From Deltaproteobacteria bacterium (GTDB taxonomy: Bacteria > Myxococcota_A > Polyangia > Polyangiales > JADJMO01), in contig JALHOE010000013.1 in NCBI GenBank assembly GCA_022843175.1, forward strand, positions 1-64,000: a stretch of 64,000 bases of DNA, written 5' to 3'. A program made the translations under genes and the position numbers. Position 1 is the stretch's first letter, and the number at the start of each line of letters is the position of its first letter. The notes beneath the pieces were generated by a model. It did no database searches, was not told the origin of the DNA, and saw nothing but the letters and a program-made list of their open reading frames with translations. Positions 2,980 to 61,078 of this stretch are shown in pieces.

Positions 2980-3118
2980 AGGCGCGCGCGATAGACAGGC
3001 GCGCGCGTCAGCGAGCGCCTCTACGTAGGAATGCGCCTGTTCCGCTCTTCGGCGTTAGGCGGCGTTAGGCGCTCGCTCACGCGCGCGCCTAGCTTGGCGC
3101 TCGCTCACGCGCGCGCCT
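2980..3118. repeat. Convergent-junction repeat cluster (family A, three copies)
   Basis: Three 24-bp copies of the unit that begins AGGCGC and ends GCGCCT lie at 2997-3020, 3067-3090 and 3095-3118; the last two are inverted relative to the first, and the third has T for the leading A. A fragment sits at 2980-2990. Each unit can fold into a hairpin of two 10-nt arms with one mismatch and a 4-nt loop (GTCA in copy 1, GTGA in copies 2 and 3). The cluster fills the gap between the sigma factor and the TolC-type gene, which converge. The TAG stop of the latter lies at the edge of copy 3. Role inferred: bidirectional terminator. Confidence 0.85.
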
Positions 3119-4718
3119 ATTGCAGCTCGCCCGTGGCCTTCTTCAGCAGCACCTTCGCGATGCGCAGGTCGACGCGGGCGTTGAGGTGATTGAGCTTCGC
3201 GCGGGTGAGGTCGGCCTCGGCGTCGATCAAGAGCGCGCTGGTGGTGGTGCCGAGCGCGAACTGCTCCTTGCGCACGCGATACGCCTCTTCGGCGGCGCGG
3301 AGCTCCACCTTGGTGGTCGCGATCGAGGCCTCGGCCTCGCGCACCTTGGTGAAGGCGCTCGTAACATCGAGCACCAGTCCGTCGGCGAGCTGCTCGCGCG
3401 TGGCCTTGAGCACCGCGATGTTGCCGCTGACCGCCTTCTTGTTGTCGGACGCGATGAGCGCGTCGTTCGGCGACCACGACAGCTGCAGCGACACGTCCCA
3501 CGTGGCCTTCCACTCGGCGCTCTGCGGGATGAAACGCTGGTTGGGGTTCGCGTAGAGCACGTTGCCGATCGCGTCGAGGCGCGGATAGAGGCCCGCGGTG
3601 ATGACCGAGGACGACGCGTCGAGCGAAGCGATCTGCGCGTCGACCGCGCGGAGCTCGGGGCGCTTGGCGTAGGCCACGGACTTGAGCTTGGGGAGGTCCT
3701 CCGTCATCTTCGGGAGCTCGGCGTCGAGGTCCTCGCCGAGCGAGAACGGCTGCTCGCCCGAGACGTGCATCATCATGCGCACGTTGGCCTCGGTGATGAT
3801 GACCAGGTTCTCGCTCTTGATGACGGCGAGCTCGGCGTTGGCCATGGTGGCCTCGACCCGCGCGACGTCGGCCACGGTGACCACCTTCGCGTCGAGGCGG
3901 TTCTTCATGTCCTTGAGGTGCGCCTCGGCCTGGCCGACCGCCGACTTGGCGACGATGACGGTGCCGCGGGCGCGGAGGAAGTTGTAGAACGCGACGCGCG
4001 CGTCGGACGCCGCGTTCATCTTGGTGACCTCGGCGTTGAACTTCGCCGCGTCGTACGAGGCGAGCGACGCCTTGTGGTTCGCCCACGTGCGGAACACGTA
4101 GTCGGACAGCGGCACCAGCAGCGAGGCCTGCACCGCGTATTGGTCGAGGATGACCGGGAACGAGAACGACGTGACCGAGCCGGTGACGAGCGTCGCGCCC
4201 GGAGCAACCGGCGAGTTGGGCGGATTGAGCGCATACACCGGGTTGATCCCCGCGGGGGGCGTGCCGCCGAAGCTCGGCGGCGTGATCGGCGACAGCCGCG
4301 TGTAGCGCGCGCTGAACGTGAGCCTCGGCCAGAACTGGTCCCACGCCGCGTCGACCTGCGCGGCCGCAACCTTGAGCTTGGCTTCGTCGATCGCGGCGTA
4401 CTTCGACGTCTTGACCGCGGCCTGGGCGACGAGGTCCGCGGTGAGCGCGGTGGAGCCCGCCACGACGGTCTCGGTGGTGGTAGCCGCGCCGCCCGTCGTC
4501 GGATCGGTCTTGGCTCCCGGGGGCGCAGCGGCGGTGGACGGCGTGTCGACCACCGGCGCACCGGCGGGCGGCGTGGTCGCTCCCTTGGTGGTGGGCGGCG
4601 GGGTCGGGCCTCCGGGCGCAGCGGTGCCAGGATTGGCCGTCTGTCCGGCGGCGACGCTCGTGAGCGCGAGCAGGGCCGTGAGCGGGGCGAATCGCACGAG
4701 GTTGCGGGGGAGGGACAT
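3117..4718 (-). CDS. TolC-type outer membrane efflux protein
   Basis: 533 aa. The ATG at 4718 is chosen because it opens a signal peptide (SLPRNLVRFAPLTALLALTS) and has AAAGG about 9 bases upstream. After a Pro/Thr/Ala-rich linker (residues about 25-80) come two repeats of long amphipathic helices with ALxxA-type periodicity, each interrupted by beta-strand blocks, as in the outer membrane factor family (OEP). Such trimers form the outer-membrane and periplasmic tunnel of tripartite efflux or type I secretion systems. No inner-membrane pump or membrane-fusion protein lies beside it, so the partner must be encoded elsewhere. The stop codon lies at the edge of an intergenic repeat. Confidence 0.9.
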   Translation of the reverse strand: MSLPRNLVRFAPLTALLALTSVAAGQTANPGTAAPGGPTPPPTTKGATTPPAGAPVVDTPSTAAAPPGAKTDPTTGGAATTTETVVAGSTALTADLVAQAAVKTSKYAAIDEAKLKVAAAQVDAAWDQFWPRLTFSARYTRLSPITPPSFGGTPPAGINPVYALNPPNSPVAPGATLVTGSVTSFSFPVILDQYAVQASLLVPLSDYVFRTWANHKASLASYDAAKFNAEVTKMNAASDARVAFYNFLRARGTVIVAKSAVGQAEAHLKDMKNRLDAKVVTVADVARVEATMANAELAVIKSENLVIITEANVRMMMHVSGEQPFSLGEDLDAELPKMTEDLPKLKSVAYAKRPELRAVDAQIASLDASSSVITAGLYPRLDAIGNVLYANPNQRFIPQSAEWKATWDVSLQLSWSPNDALIASDNKKAVSGNIAVLKATREQLADGLVLDVTSAFTKVREAEASIATTKVELRAAEEAYRVRKEQFALGTTTSALLIDAEADLTRAKLNHLNARVDLRIAKVLLKKATGELQ

Positions 4719-7017: not shown

Positions 7018-7551
7018 ATGCGAGCTCTCGTCGCGTGCGCCCTCCTGGCGTTCACGGTGGGGTGTCGTGCGCCCGCGCCGACGACGGTGCCGCTCCTCCA
7101 AGCGGCAGGCGTCCCGGTGACGGTCATCACTTCCCCTGCCGTGCCGCTCGAGGTCGTCACGCACACCGTCGGAACCGAAGTCCCCGATCCGCTCCCCGTC
7201 GAGGGGGCGTCCGTCTCCTACGCCGACGTCGAGCCCGCGCTCGGCCACGCGATCGGCTCGGCGGTCGTCCCGTGGGCGAAGGAGCACAGGAACCAGCGCC
7301 CCTCCGGGTGGCGCCTGCAAATCGATCTCATCGCCGGCCACGCCGAATACGACGACGGCCGCCTCACCGTCACCTTCAGCGTGCGCGCCACGCTGCGCGC
7401 GCGCGCCGACTACGACTACCTCGCGCAAGCCGACGCGCATTGCCTCGAGACCGGCCGCGTCGATCCGCGGCAGGGAGCCTCCGTTGTCTACACCTGCATG
7501 ACGCGCCTCGGCCGAGACATCGCCGGCTGGCTCGGGAGCGTCGAGCCCTGA
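7018..7551 (+). CDS. Hypothetical lipoprotein, first gene of SPFH pair
   Basis: 177 aa from the ATG at 7018, chosen because it opens a lipoprotein signal peptide (RALVACALLAFTVGC, Cys at 16). The mature part has a Pro/Val-rich start and then a domain with alternating strands ending RLGRDIAGWLGSV. I do not recognise the family; the size and a shape with a single C-terminal domain recall auxiliary lipoproteins, but that is only an impression. It is followed after 14 bases by the SPFH gene, so the two are probably co-transcribed and may act together at the membrane. Confidence 0.75.
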   Translation: MRALVACALLAFTVGCRAPAPTTVPLLQAAGVPVTVITSPAVPLEVVTHTVGTEVPDPLPVEGASVSYADVEPALGHAIGSAVVPWAKEHRNQRPSGWRLQIDLIAGHAEYDDGRLTVTFSVRATLRARADYDYLAQADAHCLETGRVDPRQGASVVYTCMTRLGRDIAGWLGSVEP

Positions 7552-7565
7552 AAGGAACCCAGTCC

Positions 7566-8615
7566 ATGCGCACGCTTCTCCTGCTTCTCCCGCTCACCGT
7601 CGGCTGTGCCGGCGTCACCATTCAACCGGGCCAGCGCGGCCTGTTCTTCGATCCCGCCGCCGGAGGCCTCAAGCGCGAGGTGCTGCAGCCCGGCTATCAC
7701 TCGATGTCCAGCTGCTTCATGAAGAAGTCCTGCCAGTACATCGAGGTGTTCGACGTCAGCTATCAAACGAAGAAGGAGACGGTCTCCACCACGTCGAGCG
7801 AGGGGCTCACCATGAACGTGGACGTCGCGGTCAACTACCGCCCGATCATCGCGGAGCTCTACGAGCTCAACACCGAAATCGGCCAGAACTACTACGTGGA
7901 CATCGTGTCGCCCGAGTTCAAGAGCGCGGCGATGGGGGTCTTCGCGCGCCACTCCCACACCCAGCTCACCAAGCTCAACGAGAAGATCGAGGACGAGATC
8001 GAGGCCGACCTCCGCCGCCGCATCAAGGGCAAGCACGTCGAGATCTCCTCGGTGAACATCGAGAAGGTGCACTACTCGCCGGACATCGCCGCCGCGATCG
8101 AGGCGAAGATCGTCGCCGAGCAGAACGCCGCGAAGAACAAGGCCGCCCTCGAGGCCGAGGCGCTCCGCAAGAAGATGGAGCTCGAGCACGCCTCCGAGCA
8201 GGCCAAGCTCAAAGCGGAGCTCGACGTGAAGGCCAAGAAGACCGAGGCCGAGATCGCCGAGGCGCAGGCCCACATCGACAAGACCAAGGCCGAGACCTCG
8301 GCCTCGGTGCAGATCACCTACGCGAAGGCCGAGGCCGAATCGAAGAAGGTCCTCGCCGACGCCACGGCGAAGGAGAAGAAGGCCGAATACGCCCACGTCA
8401 CGCCGCTCGTGGTGCAGCTGCACGGCTATCAGGCGCTCGGCAAGCTGGGAGGCAGCGGCACGCAGGTCTACCTCGGCGACTGGTCCAAGGTCCCGCAGTT
8501 CCTCTACCCCCACGCCTTCGGCGGCATGCCCGCGCCCATGAAGCCCGCCGCCCAGCCGGTCAACAAGCCGACGAAACTGCCGGCCAACCCGTCCGACGAC
8601 AACCCGTATCTATGA
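7566..8615 (+). CDS. SPFH/prohibitin-family lipoprotein
   Basis: 349 aa with a lipoprotein signal (RTLLLLLPLTVGC, Cys at 14). AAAGGA lies about 8 bases before the ATG. Residues about 18-210 form a Band 7/SPFH domain with prohibitin-like features: an early GQRGLFFDP, a VSTTSSEGLTMNVDVAVNYRP-type strand pair, and an ISSVNIEKVHYSP stretch. Residues 210-300 are a Glu/Ala/Lys-rich coiled coil typical of SPFH oligomerisation, followed by a Pro-rich tail. SPFH proteins usually reach the membrane through an N-terminal helix and form rings that scaffold proteases or lipid domains. Here a lipid anchor replaces the helix, implying a periplasmic rather than a cytoplasmic ring. Confidence 0.88.
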   Translation: MRTLLLLLPLTVGCAGVTIQPGQRGLFFDPAAGGLKREVLQPGYHSMSSCFMKKSCQYIEVFDVSYQTKKETVSTTSSEGLTMNVDVAVNYRPIIAELYELNTEIGQNYYVDIVSPEFKSAAMGVFARHSHTQLTKLNEKIEDEIEADLRRRIKGKHVEISSVNIEKVHYSPDIAAAIEAKIVAEQNAAKNKAALEAEALRKKMELEHASEQAKLKAELDVKAKKTEAEIAEAQAHIDKTKAETSASVQITYAKAEAESKKVLADATAKEKKAEYAHVTPLVVQLHGYQALGKLGGSGTQVYLGDWSKVPQFLYPHAFGGMPAPMKPAAQPVNKPTKLPANPSDDNPYL

Positions 8616-8619
8616 GCCC

Positions 8620-8718
8620 GGAGCCGCGAGCGTCCGCGAGCGGGTTGTCGTGAGGATCGTCAATACCTGACAACCCGCTCCCTCACGGTCGCGGCTCCAG
8701 ATGGTCGCGGCTCCAGAT
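8620..8718. repeat. Convergent-junction repeat (family B, degenerate copy)
   Basis: Two 30-base arms at 8620-8649 and 8669-8698 form an imperfect inverted repeat (GGAGCCGCGA... and ...TCGCGGCTCC, both containing CGGGTTGTC or its complement), with a 19-base loop. A partial repeat of the outer arm follows at 8699-8718. It fills the gap between the converging SPFH and pyrG genes. It is the same family as the two copies at 15308-15466 but with more mismatches. Role inferred: bidirectional terminator. Confidence 0.8.
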
Positions 8719-15307: not shown

Positions 15308-15466
15308 GAGCCGCGACCGTGAGGGAGCGGGTTGTATTCAACGACAACCCGCTCGCTGACGCGCGCGGCTCTGGAACACGCTGACGCGGCGACAAAATGC
15401 GAGAGCCGCGACCGTGAGGGAGCGGGTTGTATTCAACGACAACCCGCTCGCTGACGCGCGCGGCTC
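15308..15466. repeat. Convergent-junction repeat (family B, two identical 64-bp copies)
   Basis: Two identical 64-bp units, 15308-15371 and 15403-15466, form a direct repeat with a 95-bp period. Each is a hairpin of two 28-base arms around ATTCAACG: the first arm starts GAGCCGCGACCGTGAGG, the second ends CTCGCTGACGCGCGCGGCTC. The second arm contains the 17-base core GCTCGCTGACGCGCGCG shared with the family A units elsewhere. The pair fills the gap between the kinase-FGE gene and the propeller lipoprotein gene, starting directly after the kinase stop codon. Perfect identity points to a recent duplication. Role inferred: bidirectional terminator. Confidence 0.9.
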
Positions 15467-18479: not shown

Positions 18480-20000
18480 ATGAAACGCGCGCACTTGGGG
18501 CTCTTGGTCGGTCTAATCGCGGTTGGCTGCTCGTCCTCCTCGTTCGAGGTCGCTTCTCCGCCGGGTGAGGACACGGGGGAGGTCGACACGGGGAGCGTCG
18601 CCCTCGACAGCGACCTCCCGGTCGATTCGTCGAGCGAGACCGAGGGACCGGACACCTCCATCGTCGACAGCGGCGCGGCGGACTCGTTCGTGCCGGTCGA
18701 TTCGACGATGCCGGACACGCGACCGCCGGACACCGGCACCATGCCCGACACCACGGTCGTCGACACCGGCACCGTCCCGATCGACAGCGGCACGATCGAC
18801 AGTGGCACGATCGACAGCGCCACGATCGACAGCGCCCCGATCGACAGCGGCACGATCGACAGCGGCACCCCCGACACAATCGTCGCCATCGACACCGCGC
18901 CCCCGCTCTGCCCCGTGCTGACGAGCGCGCTCACCGAGGTGTGGGTCGACGCGGCGTCGCCGCACGCAACGCCGAACGGCACCTCCACCTGCCCGTTCAA
19001 GACGATTCAGCAGGCGGTGGCGTACGTGAACACGCTGCCCGTGGCTGCGCGCACCATCCGCGTGCGCGCCGGCACCTACAACGAGGTCGGCGCCGTGCTG
19101 CTCCCGACGCTGACCACGCTCACCGGCGCCGGCATCGGCGCCACCACGATCCTCGGCGGCGGCGCGTGCATGGGCATCGGCAACTGCATCGTTCGCGTCG
19201 CCGGCGGCGCCATTCTCGAGCAGGTCACGGTCGACGCCTCGCCCACGGCCAAGCACGCGATCGTCACCGGCGGCACCGATCCCGGCGGCTTCCCAATCCT
19301 CCGCAACCTCAAGGCCACGGGCGCCGTGGGCGACGGCAACGCGGGGATCCTCACCTCGTCGGGCTCGCTCATCGGCCCGAACGTCGAGTCGTCGGGCAAC
19401 AAGCTCGGCCTCGTCGTGTGGGGCAGCCAGAAGACGACGATCAGCGGCGGCGGCAACGTGTTCGACAACAACACGCTCCACGGCATCAACCACGAGGGCG
19501 TCGGCGTCCTCTCGTTCAAGGGTGGCGGCAGAGCCAGCGGCAACGGCCAGGACGGCATCAAGTTCGGCGAGGCCACGTCGACGGTGGCGCCGTTCCACGA
19601 GGTGTGGGGCGTCATCATCAAGAACAACGGCGGCGCCGGCATCCGCTTCCTCGCCAACGCCGGGGGCGAGGTCCGCAACTCGAGCTTCCTCGGCAACAAC
19701 TGGGGCATCCTCGCGCGCTACGGCGCGAGCAACACGTTCGACTTCGGCAACGCGACGGCGAGCGGCAACAACTCGTTCGCGGTCGGCACCGCGGCAAACA
19801 AGATCGCCGGCGTGTGCGTCGCCAACACGCCGGGCACCGCCACGCCCATCGTCGGCAACAAGTTCTCGGCCTGTCCGGTGACCCCGCGGCCGTGCACCGA
19901 GGTCAGCCGCGACGCCGAGTGCGAGACGGTCTCCACGTACAGCGACGTCTGGTACCTCGGCACCTCCGCGCCCGACGCGAGCTCCTGCTCCCCCCCCTAG
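18480..20000 (+). CDS. Stalked surface lipoprotein with beta-helix (DUF1565-like) domain
   Basis: 506 aa from the ATG at 18480, which opens a lipoprotein signal (RAHLGLLVGLIAVGC). Residues 25-145 are an Asp/Thr/Ser-rich low-complexity stalk containing six tandem IDSGT-type pentapeptides. Residues about 150-440 form a right-handed parallel beta-helix: VWVDAASPHATPNGTSTCPF followed by KTIQQAVAYVN and VRAGTYNE match the DUF1565 start, and asparagine- and glycine-rich coils follow. The C-terminal 45 residues contain several cysteines. Such proteins are likely displayed on the outer membrane and may bind or cleave polysaccharide, though no catalytic site is evident. It converges on the transpeptidase gene. 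Confidence 0.85.
   Translation: MKRAHLGLLVGLIAVGCSSSSFEVASPPGEDTGEVDTGSVALDSDLPVDSSSETEGPDTSIVDSGAADSFVPVDSTMPDTRPPDTGTMPDTTVVDTGTVPIDSGTIDSGTIDSATIDSAPIDSGTIDSGTPDTIVAIDTAPPLCPVLTSALTEVWVDAASPHATPNGTSTCPFKTIQQAVAYVNTLPVAARTIRVRAGTYNEVGAVLLPTLTTLTGAGIGATTILGGGACMGIGNCIVRVAGGAILEQVTVDASPTAKHAIVTGGTDPGGFPILRNLKATGAVGDGNAGILTSSGSLIGPNVESSGNKLGLVVWGSQKTTISGGGNVFDNNTLHGINHEGVGVLSFKGGGRASGNGQDGIKFGEATSTVAPFHEVWGVIIKNNGGAGIRFLANAGGEVRNSSFLGNNWGILARYGASNTFDFGNATASGNNSFAVGTAANKIAGVCVANTPGTATPIVGNKFSACPVTPRPCTEVSRDAECETVSTYSDVWYLGTSAPDASSCSPP
18780..18869 (+). repeat. In-frame 15-bp tandem repeat in lipoprotein stalk
   Basis: Six units of 15 bp (consensus ATCGACAGCGGCACG) encode IDSGT, IDSGT, IDSAT, IDSAP, IDSGT and IDSGT. 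Units 1, 5 and 6 are nearly identical in DNA, so length variation by slippage or recombination is likely between strains. It forms part of the stalk linking the lipid anchor to the beta-helix. Confidence 0.9.
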
Positions 20001-20080
20001 CCCCGCGCGTCAGCGAGCGCCTCCGCCAGGCGCGCGCGTCAGCAAGCACCTCCGCCAGGCGCGCGCGTCAGCGAGCGCCT
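20001..20080. repeat. Convergent-junction repeats (family A, three tandem copies)
   Basis: Three copies in direct orientation with a 29-bp period: a truncated one at 20001-20022 and full 24-bp ones at 20028-20051 (two substitutions, AGCAAGCACC) and 20057-20080. They are separated by CCGCC. The array starts immediately after the stop codon of the beta-helix lipoprotein and ends 17 bases before the stop codon of the convergent transpeptidase gene. Unlike most other junctions, all copies point the same way. The loop is GTCA in each. Confidence 0.88.
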
Positions 20081-23757: not shown

Positions 23758-23857
23758 GCTTCGCTCTGGGCCAGCGACGACACGATTCGTCGTGCGGGCC
23801 CACGCGCGCCGACGCCGAGCCCTCACCACCGACCGCCACCGGCCAGGGTACCGGCCC

Positions 23858-23997
23858 AAATTCCGATCTACTCGCTATACGCGTTAGATGCGGACGTGGG
23901 GCGCGGCCGCCGAGAGGGGGAGAGGGGCGGCCCCCGGAGCCGCGTGCGGGTACGTGCTCGATCCGAACTAACGCAAATAGCGAGTAGATCGGAATTT
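23858..23997. repeat. 140-bp palindromic element between dnaK and aldo/keto reductase
   Basis: Perfect 21-bp inverted repeats at 23858-23878 (AAATTCCGATCTACTCG...) and 23977-23997 enclose about 98 bases. Allowing two mismatches, the arms extend to 30 bp (to 23887 and from 23968). The arms are much richer in A+T than the surrounding DNA, while the loop is GC-rich with a purine run (GAGAGGGGGAGAGGGGCGG). It occupies a convergent gap that has no copy of the family A/B repeat. The rest of this 383-bp gap holds no gene I can support. It could be a MITE-like remnant or a long terminator hairpin. Confidence 0.8.
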
Positions 23998-24064
23998 GGA
24001 ACGGGCACAGCCCGGGCGGGCGGCGTGCGGTGGAGGCGGCGGTCGGCCAGCGCGTGGTGACGAC

Positions 24065-30298: not shown

Positions 30299-30309
30299 GC
30301 GCGCCAGCT

Positions 30310-30401
30310 AGGCGCGCGCGTCAGCGAGCGCCTGACCCGTGCGGGCAAAACCCATGGATCGGTGGCCCTCGCCGGTCAGGCGCTCGCTCACGCGCGCGCC
30401 T
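30310..30401. repeat. Convergent-junction repeat pair (family A, inverted)
   Basis: Two 24-bp copies in inverted orientation at 30310-30333 (loop GTCA) and 30378-30401 (loop GTGA), 44 bases apart. Besides each folding alone, the pair can fold into one long hairpin covering the gap between the dus gene and the convergent hypothetical gene. The minus-strand gene takes its TAG stop (30400-30402) from the outer edge of the second copy. Role inferred: bidirectional terminator. Confidence 0.88.
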
Positions 30402-31002
30402 AGGTTTGCTTGGTGGGGATGAGCCACAGCACGACGAGGCCCGCGAAGCAGAGCATGATCACGATCGCCCAGGGGCGGGTGCGGGGGTCCTTGAGGCGGT
30501 CTCGCGACTCGATGCGCGGCAGCGCGCCGCCGGGGTGGAAGGCGTTGTGCTCGGCGATGCCCGGGTTCTTCGGCGCGCGACCGAACGTCTCGGTGTAGAG
30601 CAGGATCCCGTCCTGCCACGCGAGCCAGTCGCCGTCGCTCTTGATCTCGAGCTGCTCCCTCGTGAAGTGATCGCGGGCGACGAGCAAGCAGGCGGTCACC
30701 AGCTCGTCGTATGGTTTGCGCTCGGTCCACACCGCGTTGGTGCCGACGCGGCCGGGGAACACGAAGTCCTCCTGCGCGAGGGCACCCCGGCCGTTGAACC
30801 GGATCTCGCCCGGCTTGTCGACGACGTCGACCAGGCCGGGGCGGCGCGCGATGACCTTCTGCATCGCCTCGGCGGCCCGCGCGACCACCACCGGGTCGGG
30901 CTTCTCCTTGAAGACCCACACGTGCGTGTAGCCGGCGATGGCCTCTCTCCCGAAGAGCGAGAGCCCGAGCGCCAAAGCGGCGGCGACGACCCACCGGACC
31001 AT
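30400..31002 (-). CDS. Hypothetical protein with signal peptide and C-terminal membrane helix
   Basis: 200 aa from the ATG at 31002. A signal peptide (VRWVVAAALALGLSLFGREAIA) is followed by a domain of about 140 residues with alternating charged helices and strands (DPVVVARAAEAMQKVIARRP, KSDGDWLAWQDGILLYTETF), and a C-terminal transmembrane helix near residues 175-193. I do not recognise the family. The topology, if the signal is cleaved, leaves a periplasmic domain tethered at its C-terminus. It starts 24 bases from the divergent nuclease-like gene. No operon partner on its own strand. Confidence 0.72.
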   Translation of the reverse strand: MVRWVVAAALALGLSLFGREAIAGYTHVWVFKEKPDPVVVARAAEAMQKVIARRPGLVDVVDKPGEIRFNGRGALAQEDFVFPGRVGTNAVWTERKPYDELVTACLLVARDHFTREQLEIKSDGDWLAWQDGILLYTETFGRAPKNPGIAEHNAFHPGGALPRIESRDRLKDPRTRPWAIVIMLCFAGLVVLWLIPTKQT

Positions 31003-39082: not shown

Positions 39083-40456
39083 ATGCTGCTCGATCGGCTC
39101 GCCGAGGCGAACATCACGATCACGCGCGATCCGTCCGAGCTCGCGGAGTATGGCAAGGACTGGACGAAGGTCTACGCGCCCGCGCCCCTCGCGATCGCGT
39201 TCCCCGCGTCCACCGCGGAGGTGGCGACGATCGTCCGCCTCTGCGCCGAGCACGACGTGGCCGTCGTCCCCTCGGGCGGCCGCACCGGCCTCGCGGGCGG
39301 CGCGGTCGCCAAGAACGGCGAGCTGGTGCTCTCGCTCGCGCGCATGCGCCGCATCGATCCGGTCGACGTCCTCGGCGCCACCGTCCGGGTGCAAGCCGGC
39401 GCCATCACCGAGGCGGTGCACCACCACTGCGCGCCGCACGGGCTCACCTGGCCGGTGGACTTCGCGTCCAAGGGCTCGAGCACCGTCGGCGGCAACATCT
39501 CCACCAACGCCGGCGGCGTGAAGGTCATTCGCTACGGGCTCACCCGGCAGTGGGTGCTCGGCCTCCAGGTCGTCACGGCGAGCGGCGAGATCCTCGAGCT
39601 CAACGGCGCGCTCGAGAAGAACAACACCGGCACCGATCTACGCCAGCTGTTCATCGGCACCGAGGGCACGCTCGGGATCGTGACCGAGGCCACGCTCAAG
39701 CTCACGCGCCTCCCCGGCAAGCTCGACGTGTTCCTCTTCGCGGTGGCCGATCTGGCTGCGGTGCTCGCGTTGTTCCGCGAGGCGCGCCGCGGCCCGTTCA
39801 CGATCAGCGCCTACGAGTTCTTCACCGACCGCTGCCTCGCGCGCCTGCAGCGCCATCGCAAGGTCAAGGCGCCGTTCGCGGCGGAGACGTCGCACTACGT
39901 GCTGCTCGAGGTCGAGGCCGCCGATCCCGCGGTGCTGCAGGGGTGGATCGAGGGTCTGTTCGAGAGCGGCCTCGCGCAGGACGGCGTGCTCGCCCAACAC
40001 TCCGGCGAGGCCGCGCAGCTCTGGACTCTGCGCGAGGGGATCAGCGAGTCGCTCTCGGCCACCGGCATGCCCCACAAGAACGACATCGCGCTCCCCGTCG
40101 CCGCGCTCGAGGCCTTCTGCGGCGAGCTCGAGCAGCTCTTCGCCTCGCGCTACCCCGGCTTCGAGATCTGCAACTTCGGCCACATCGGCGACGGCAACCT
40201 CCACGTCAACGTGATGAAGCCGGACGACATGCCCAAGGACGCCTTCCTCGCGAAGACCAAGGAGGCCGACCACGAGATGTTCGCGCTGGTGGCCAAACAC
40301 CACGGCTCGATCTCGGCGGAGCACGGCGTCGGGTTGTTGAAGAAGGACTACCTCGGGTACTCGCGAAGCCCCGAGGAGCTCGCGTTGCTCCGGGCGCTCA
40401 AGCGCACGCTCGATCCGCGGGGCCTGCTCAACCCCGGCAAGATCCTCGACCAATAG
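39083..40456 (+). CDS. FAD-linked oxidase, D-lactate/glycolate dehydrogenase type (second copy)
   Basis: 457 aa from the ATG at 39083; an in-frame GTG at 39044 would add 13 residues, and the GGAGG just before the ATG is closer than ideal. The FAD-binding PCMH domain has PSGGRTGLAGG (about residues 65-75) and STVGGNISTNAGG. The C-terminal oxidase domain has NFGHIGDGNLHVN and SAEHGVGLLKKDYLGY. It resembles the enzyme at 11720-13156 but is clearly diverged, so the two likely use different D-2-hydroxy acids. No partner iron-sulfur subunit is adjacent. The TAG stop is shared with the first base pairs of an intergenic repeat. Confidence 0.9.
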   Translation: MLLDRLAEANITITRDPSELAEYGKDWTKVYAPAPLAIAFPASTAEVATIVRLCAEHDVAVVPSGGRTGLAGGAVAKNGELVLSLARMRRIDPVDVLGATVRVQAGAITEAVHHHCAPHGLTWPVDFASKGSSTVGGNISTNAGGVKVIRYGLTRQWVLGLQVVTASGEILELNGALEKNNTGTDLRQLFIGTEGTLGIVTEATLKLTRLPGKLDVFLFAVADLAAVLALFREARRGPFTISAYEFFTDRCLARLQRHRKVKAPFAAETSHYVLLEVEAADPAVLQGWIEGLFESGLAQDGVLAQHSGEAAQLWTLREGISESLSATGMPHKNDIALPVAALEAFCGELEQLFASRYPGFEICNFGHIGDGNLHVNVMKPDDMPKDAFLAKTKEADHEMFALVAKHHGSISAEHGVGLLKKDYLGYSRSPEELALLRALKRTLDPRGLLNPGKILDQ

Positions 40457-40562
40457 GCGCGCGCGTAAGCGAGCGCCTGACGGCTCCAATCGAAGGCGCT
40501 CGCTTACGCGCGCGCCTGTCATCGAAGGCTCCAATCGAAGGCGCTCGCTTACGCGCGCGCCT
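40455..40562. repeat. Convergent-junction repeats (family A, three copies)
   Basis: Copies at 40455-40478, 40494-40517 and 40539-40562; the second and third are inverted relative to the first. The last two lie in a 45-bp direct duplication that includes the spacer GAAGGCTCCAATCGAAGG. All three have the loop GTAA, a variant not seen at other junctions. The first copy supplies the A and G of the TAG stop of the FAD oxidase. The remaining 98 bases to the doxX stop show nothing further. Confidence 0.88.
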
Positions 40563-40660
40563 GTCAGAGACGGTAGTCCAAGGGCGCCACTTGCGCGTAC
40601 CTCACCGGCGAGTTACGTCTCCGCTCCCCATGAAGCTCGGCGTCGCCGGCCTCCGCCCCC

Positions 40661-48314: not shown

Positions 48315-48331
48315 CGCAGGCGCGCAGCAAC

Positions 48332-48355
48332 AGGCGCGCGCGTCAGCGAGCGCCT
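48332..48355. repeat. Convergent-junction repeat (family A, single copy)
   Basis: One intact 24-bp unit with loop GTCA, 17 bases after the stop of the small barrel gene and 24 bases before the stop of serA. The flanks GCAGGCGCGCAGCAACAGG and ACGCGCAGCAACACCAGC repeat CGCAGCAACA on both sides, as if the unit were inserted with a short direct repeat, but this could be chance. Confidence 0.82.
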
Positions 48356-52747: not shown

Positions 52748-52801
52748 GGCATCGCCCAGCATAACGTTGACGCCGCCCCTCGGCCCGCCCATGAATACCT
52801 C

Positions 52802-54800
<1,999 letters not shown>

Positions 54801-60974: not shown

Positions 60975-61078
60975 AGGCGCTCGCTGACGCGCGCGCCTAG
61001 CTCTTCGCGCGCGCCCAACTCTTCGCGCGCGCTTGCTGACCGGTGCGGGCTGACAGGCGCGCGCGTCAGCGAGCGCCT
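60975..61078. repeat. Convergent-junction repeat pair (family A, inverted)
   Basis: Two intact 24-bp units in inverted orientation, 60975-60998 and 61055-61078, with degenerate fragments between them (for example GCGCGCTTGCTGACC near 61027-61041). Both have the GTCA loop. The pair can fold singly or as one long hairpin over the gap between namZ and the convergent membrane protein gene. Role inferred: bidirectional terminator. Confidence 0.88.

Follow-up and report, generated by a model that had tools for sequence, protein, structure and literature searches.

Repeat units in the window

The window, that is, the whole 64,000-nucleotide stretch of DNA that was analysed, carries two identical 64-bp units on its forward strand, at 15308–15371 and 15403–15466, with a period of 95 bp. 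When the alignment was extended to 69 bp, 68 positions matched. Each unit consists of one small imperfect hairpin present twice in inverted orientation, with a complementary inner GTTGT...ACAAC between the two copies. In the first unit, the hairpins occupy 15309–15330 (+; CC/GG variant, GA strand) and 15349–15370 (−; inverted, GC/GC variant) and enclose GTTGTATTCAACGACAAC; in the second, they lie at 15404–15425 (+) and 15444–15465 (−). Folding of the 64-bp unit as single-stranded DNA gave −29.2 kcal/mol (z = −7.95). A diverged unit at 8620–8698 (+) has hairpins at 8622–8643 (+; loop GTCC) and 8675–8696 (−), arms of 30 nt with 87% complementarity, and an inner stretch of 31 nt that retains GTTGTC...GACAAC. 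Both the identity of the pair and the membership of the diverged unit, proposed in the initial annotation, were borne out by alignment. The 64-bp units combine an inverted pair of REP-type hairpins, a complementary inner stretch, high copy number and extragenic position, the features by which REPINs are recognized; they are referred to below as B-type.

Shorter hairpins of 24 bp (A-type) occur elsewhere in the window. Three lie between convergent genes at 2995–3120 (2997–3018 on the forward strand, 3069–3090 and 3097–3118 on the reverse), and three A-like hairpins form a tandem array at 19997–20080 (+) with a period of 29 bp and the common spacer CTCCGCC. Inverted pairs were found at 30308–30403 and, between convergent genes, at 60975–61078. 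Three more hairpins, one forward and two reverse in tandem at a 45-bp period, occupy 40453–40564, and a lone hairpin lies between convergent genes at 48330–48355 (+).

The window also contains a MITE-like element of ~150 bp (23851–24004) with inverted ends of 32–37 nt (CCAAATTCCGATCTACTCGCTAT...), of which 1 Mb of the genome contained four copies, and a GACAGCGGCACGATC-like tandem repeat of 15 bp within an ORF (18752–18891). The sole Rfam match in the window was a TPP riboswitch at 52798–52899 (71 bits), away from the hairpins.

Hairpin consensus and the A and B families

Along the hairpin strand, the sequence is GAG-CCGC-GA-SC-GTNA-GS-GA-GCGG, with a GTNA loop that leaves one base free and an internal G·A mismatch that is kept. 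Read on the other strand, the general form covering both families is (foot)AG-NCGC-G[AC]-SC-GTNA-GS-GA-GCGN. The mismatch breaks the stem, and in most copies from other genomes it stands in tandem with an A·G mismatch. The initial annotation had recognized a 17-mer core, GCTCGCTGACGCGCGCG, in one arm of the 64-bp unit and had described the second arm as different. The first observation holds; the second does not. On its own strand, the other arm also gives this hairpin, with C-G in place of G-C at one stem pair and A for C at the internal mismatch.

With up to two mismatches, the 17-mer had 17 matches in the window, compared to 1.06 expected in shuffled sequences. The annotation had allowed for a core shared only by chance, with no excess of the 17-mer across the genome; instead, 383 exact copies were counted in the 9.75-Mb genome and none of the pattern read backwards. 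Genome-wide, 561 exact core matches were counted for the A family (24 bp, AGGCGCTCGCTNACGCGCGCGCCT) and 231 exact matches for the B family (28 bp, ACAACCCGCTCSCTNACGSKCGCGGCTC). A and B searches yielded 102 and 30 matches, respectively, versus 2 and 0 in reversed sequence.

Among 87 different hairpin sequences, pairing held in 92.1% of pair cells, versus 79.7% after shuffling, and the covariation score was 0.283, versus 0.101 in shuffled and at most 0.036 in slid alignments. Changes on both sides were found in five of the six stem pairs; 38 sequences had C-G instead of G-C at the second pair from the loop, and 13 had G-C instead of C-G at the outer pair. Because the differences are compensatory pair swaps and the stem covaries, a single hairpin, in several variants, underlies both arms of the 64-bp unit as well as the 24-bp family.

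The families differ in the foot, the bases 5′ of the stem, which ends in GA in B (nnGA) and in TA or CA in A (nn[TC]A). In this genome, 29 of 31 B feet read nnGA, while the strict CnGA form (13 feet) is a minority even in B; in other genomes, the feet are mostly CCGA, CAGA, CGGA or CTGA, with some ACGA. The CnGA rule given for hairpins of class 3 TnpA_Y1 transposases is weakened by these feet, since most B copies of this genome deviate from the strict form and its A copies carry nn[TC]A. The GT[AG]G foot of classical REP sequences was absent from the foot tables, and the 3′ flank tables contained no T-run after the stem such as an intrinsic terminator requires. A hybrid B-A doublet is present twice, at C2:24816–24974. 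With its swapped outer pair and other foot, the A family forms a second subfamily of this hairpin, in agreement with the earlier proposal of two hairpin lineages built on one core. In one reading frame, the hairpin encodes RAATVRERS, a peptide of which no mention was found in the open-access library searched.

Genomic setting

The setting was surveyed in 999 kb of contigs, with approximate gene calls from a simple codon model. Of the 123 hairpins, 115 were intergenic. Among 57 placed clusters, 25 lay between convergent and 24 between codirectional genes, one between divergent genes and seven inside a gene, while the gaps available numbered 82, 256 and 128 for convergent, codirectional and divergent pairs, respectively. 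The favoured position is the 3′ end of genes. Paired B hairpins were mostly inverted with GA outward (9 vs. 2), and paired A hairpins had no preferred orientation (14 vs. 12).

Class 3 transposase gene

Class 3 TnpA_Y1 proteins, as defined by Quentin et al. (2018), carry the motifs NHVH, W[TA] and YV[VI][AENY]EQ and are associated with hairpins with the foot CnGA (PMC6006769). One class 3 Y1/HUH gene was found in the genome studied here, at C15:18315–18779 (−), with an E-value of 1.9e-35 to profile A1, which was built from seven hairpin-flanked class 3-like proteins of other genomes. The HVH and Y----Q motifs are intact (EHVH in place of NHVH; YVLYEQ), and WARGG supplies the W[TA] motif. The flanking hairpin is repeated genome-wide, as the 231 B-type copies.

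Inverted 28-bp B hairpins bound the gene at both ends, ~0–20 bp from the ORF. At the 5′ boundary, the ATG directly precedes a B hairpin (ATG GAG CCG CGA...); at the 3′ boundary, an inverted B hairpin contains the TGA stop and is followed by four further B hairpins in tandem. The 64-bp unit thus corresponds to the same ends without the gene.

The protein is divergent, scoring 15.2 bits on the Pfam Y1_Tnp model against a cut-off of 23. Its hairpin-flanked class 3 relatives reach 26–27 bits on the RAYT model NF047646, for which the cut-off is 80, and a sequence search of solved structures returned no match to the class 3 protein. The search for a REP-associated transposase suggested by the initial annotation was therefore successful, but the enzyme belongs to class 3, a rare class that escapes the curated RAYT model.

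Other candidates were rejected as the source of the hairpins. The remaining Y1_Tnp genes of the genome (on C128, C367 and C139, and at C15:70336) are not bounded by these hairpins, a single A-like hairpin lying 200 bp from the RAYT-like gene C15:70336. High-scoring classical RAYTs in other phyla had flanks without the hairpin.

Distribution across genomes

In a scan of public genomes, the B hairpin was found in Planctomycetota, Acidobacteriota, Legionella, other proteobacteria, Chloroflexota and Verrucomicrobia, mostly in the CCC/GGT form. All 24 hairpin-bearing genomes of other phyla that were examined contained from 2 to 287 exact copies. Class 3 Y1 genes closely flanked by hairpins were identified in Solibacter, two Bryobacterales, Legionella shakespearei, Singulisphaera and Planctomycetota, and a near-identical hairpin stood on both sides of the gene in at least six genomes from these groups (Solibacter, Bryobacterales, Legionella, Singulisphaera, Planctomycetota). 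Exact inverted repeats of at least 14 nt between the two flanks were present at 27 of 40 class 3 loci, versus 2 of 992 random flank pairs; the flank repeats differ among loci, and many retain the apex GCGTNAGC. The GTNA loop, the G·A mismatch and the stem are kept across phyla and such hairpins flank most of the class 3 genes examined, which indirectly supports the earlier suggestion that the core is the recognized part.

A class 3 gene was detected in 15 of the 24 hairpin-bearing genomes. The other nine had no match, possibly due to incomplete MAGs, gene loss or another enzyme. In 149 sampled Planctomycetota, the B core occurred in three genomes, one of them the chosen centre, and a class 3 gene in 18, including both other genomes with the core. 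In two planctomycete MAGs (L189:4787–7189 (+) and L284, G332:C27:30300–33200), a class 3 transposase and hairpins lie in frame inside a valyl-tRNA synthetase ORF, without stop codons and apparently at the same place.

Within the phylum of the studied genome, the B core was present in 2 of 284 genomes, the second with a single copy, and class 3 genes in 4 of 284. A-type copies were found neither in the same-genus relative G284 nor in 75 further relatives, and none with up to two mismatches was found in 1.0 Mb from other phyla. G284 has neither the hairpins nor the class 3 gene, and hairpins are absent from its syntenic sites. A search of G284 for exact empty sites yielded no clean case, the intergenic DNA being too diverged and occupied by other repeats. 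The loci of G284:C34 (L315–L317) orthologous to 2997–3118 and 15308–15466 of the window bear other inverted repeats, made of short tandem units (AGTCGTC-type, AGTCTAG-type), none of which turned up in 1 Mb of the window's genome. At another syntenic position, G284 lacks both the Band_7/SPFH gene and the REPIN that follows it in the window (7035–8698); there, the alignments to either side almost touch.

In the phylogenetic tree, the Legionella class 3 gene grouped with that of another gammaproteobacterium, then with the acidobacterial and Singulisphaera genes. The gene of the studied genome had no clear position, so no donor of any transfer is indicated. The patchy distribution, together with near-identity across phyla, points to horizontal movement.

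Interpretation and alternatives

We consider it highly probable that the 64-bp units are REPINs, non-autonomous elements of a class 3 TnpA_Y1 REPtron whose autonomous form is present at another locus of this genome. By analogy with characterized TnpA_REP and IS200 enzymes, the HUH-tyrosine enzyme would bind the GA strand of the hairpin in single-stranded form and read its GTNA loop, G·A mismatch and stem. Cleavage would be guided by the foot 5′ of the stem, and the hairpin or doublet would then move into single-stranded DNA. Surviving insertions would be mainly those behind genes, and subsequent local tandem duplication could give rise to arrays and to adjacent identical units like the 64-bp pair. 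The change of foot between A and B may shift the cut site.

For the A family, we lean towards mobilization in trans by the same class 3 enzyme. One enzyme for both families is favoured by the common 17-mer core with its loop and mismatch, the compensatory pair difference, the hybrid doublets and the presence of a single class 3 gene in an assembly that is 95% complete, and disfavoured by the different feet and the lack of orientation among A pairs. The less probable alternative, still a serious one, is that A and B are separate systems, B with the class 3 gene and A spread by another Y1 transposase or by one that was lost or not assembled. The A-like hairpin near C15:70336 and the lack of A-type copies in the 1.0 Mb from other phyla fit such a separation, as do the feet and pair orientations; however, none of the other Y1 genes detected has A hairpins on both sides, and the features common to both families, the duplicated B-A hybrids and the single class 3 gene argue against it.

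The identity of the two 64-bp copies had been attributed to recent duplication or gene conversion. Each array has its own spacer, near-exact inside the array and different in other arrays, a sign of local duplication that accounts for the two copies being identical. The spacers support recent copying within arrays without distinguishing duplication from gene conversion, and arrays may be mis-assembled in this fragmented assembly of 470 contigs. Independent insertion of the two copies, with no local duplication or conversion, is unlikely: REPINs are regarded as the mobile unit (PMC3116915) and insertion close to existing copies could be favoured, but both copies have the same inner ATTCAACG, while the paired REPINs at C2:20340 and C2:20422 have a different inner sequence in common.

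It is very improbable that the hairpins are host-selected RNA structures, such as 3′-end terminators or mRNA stabilizers, that arose repeatedly in place and are not mobile. Their strength, their near-absence between divergent genes and the other inverted repeats found at the same gene ends in the sister species would suit such a role. However, one species has hundreds of near-identical copies and its genus mate none, near-identical sequences bound a transposase gene in unrelated phyla, the mismatch is conserved and no T-run follows the stem. A secondary RNA role of the hairpins is possible. Finally, a common core produced by composition or chance is refuted by the counts given above and by the absence of the hairpins from relatives of the same order, even though GC-rich alternating sequence inflates short palindromes in a genome with a GC fraction of 0.69.

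Relation to known systems and significance

The REPtron reading places the units among elements of a known kind; what is new is the conservation across phyla and the two feet. Class 3 TnpA_Y1 has been described with ~600 copies in Solibacter usitatus and from Planctomycetes, Acidobacteria and Proteobacteria, with atypical REP-like structures (PMC6006769). The present system shares with it the transposase lineage marked by the HUH, W[TA] and Y----Q motifs, the hairpin-flanked gene and the high copy number. It differs in belonging to another host lineage, where only this genome of 284 in its phylum has the hairpin in number, in feet that keep less strictly to CnGA, in a second family bearing another foot, and in a gene whose start and stop lie at or in hairpins (compare PMC6006769).

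As in the REPINs of Bertels and Rainey (2011), the unit is an extragenic inverted REP doublet with a short inner hairpin, and doublets form tandem clusters; in contrast to them, it has no GT[AG]G foot, no classical RAYT and a patchy distribution over phyla (PMC3116915). The imperfect stem, the conserved mismatch and the mosaics of at least two REP types resemble the REP/BIME of E. coli with its TnpA_REP, from which the present system differs in stem, loop and transposase subclass, and in the foot, which is GTAG in E. coli (PMC8266576). TnpA_REP enzymes bind single-stranded REP, one strand only; they depend on the foot, which also directs the choice of cut site, and in E. coli on the mismatch as well (PMC8266576). 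In TIRtrons of Acidobacteria and other bacteria, tyrosine transposase genes likewise stand between inverted repeats, which make up a repeat family as well; these terminal inverted repeats are described as long and of several unrelated kinds, and the comparison with the present hairpin is by description only (Di Nocera et al. 2013, PMC3733652).

REP sequences have commonly been regarded as specific to a species (PMC6006769) and RAYTs as vertically inherited (PMC8049555). Contrary to this picture, nearly the same 22-nt hairpin and its transposase lineage recur in scattered genomes of several phyla. Class 3 REPtrons could, as we tentatively propose, travel horizontally with their hairpin almost unchanged, in contrast to the vertically inherited, domesticated RAYTs; in the present genome, one class 3 enzyme would serve two hairpin families with different guide feet, and foot switching would have made a second family, by now the more numerous. 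The covariation table amounts to a testable grammar (stem, G·A mismatch, GTNA loop and foot) for an enzyme class that has no sequence-detectable solved relative. Since one species has ~800 exact copies and a member of its genus lacks them altogether, how a REP family arrives, amplifies and diversifies can be studied directly.
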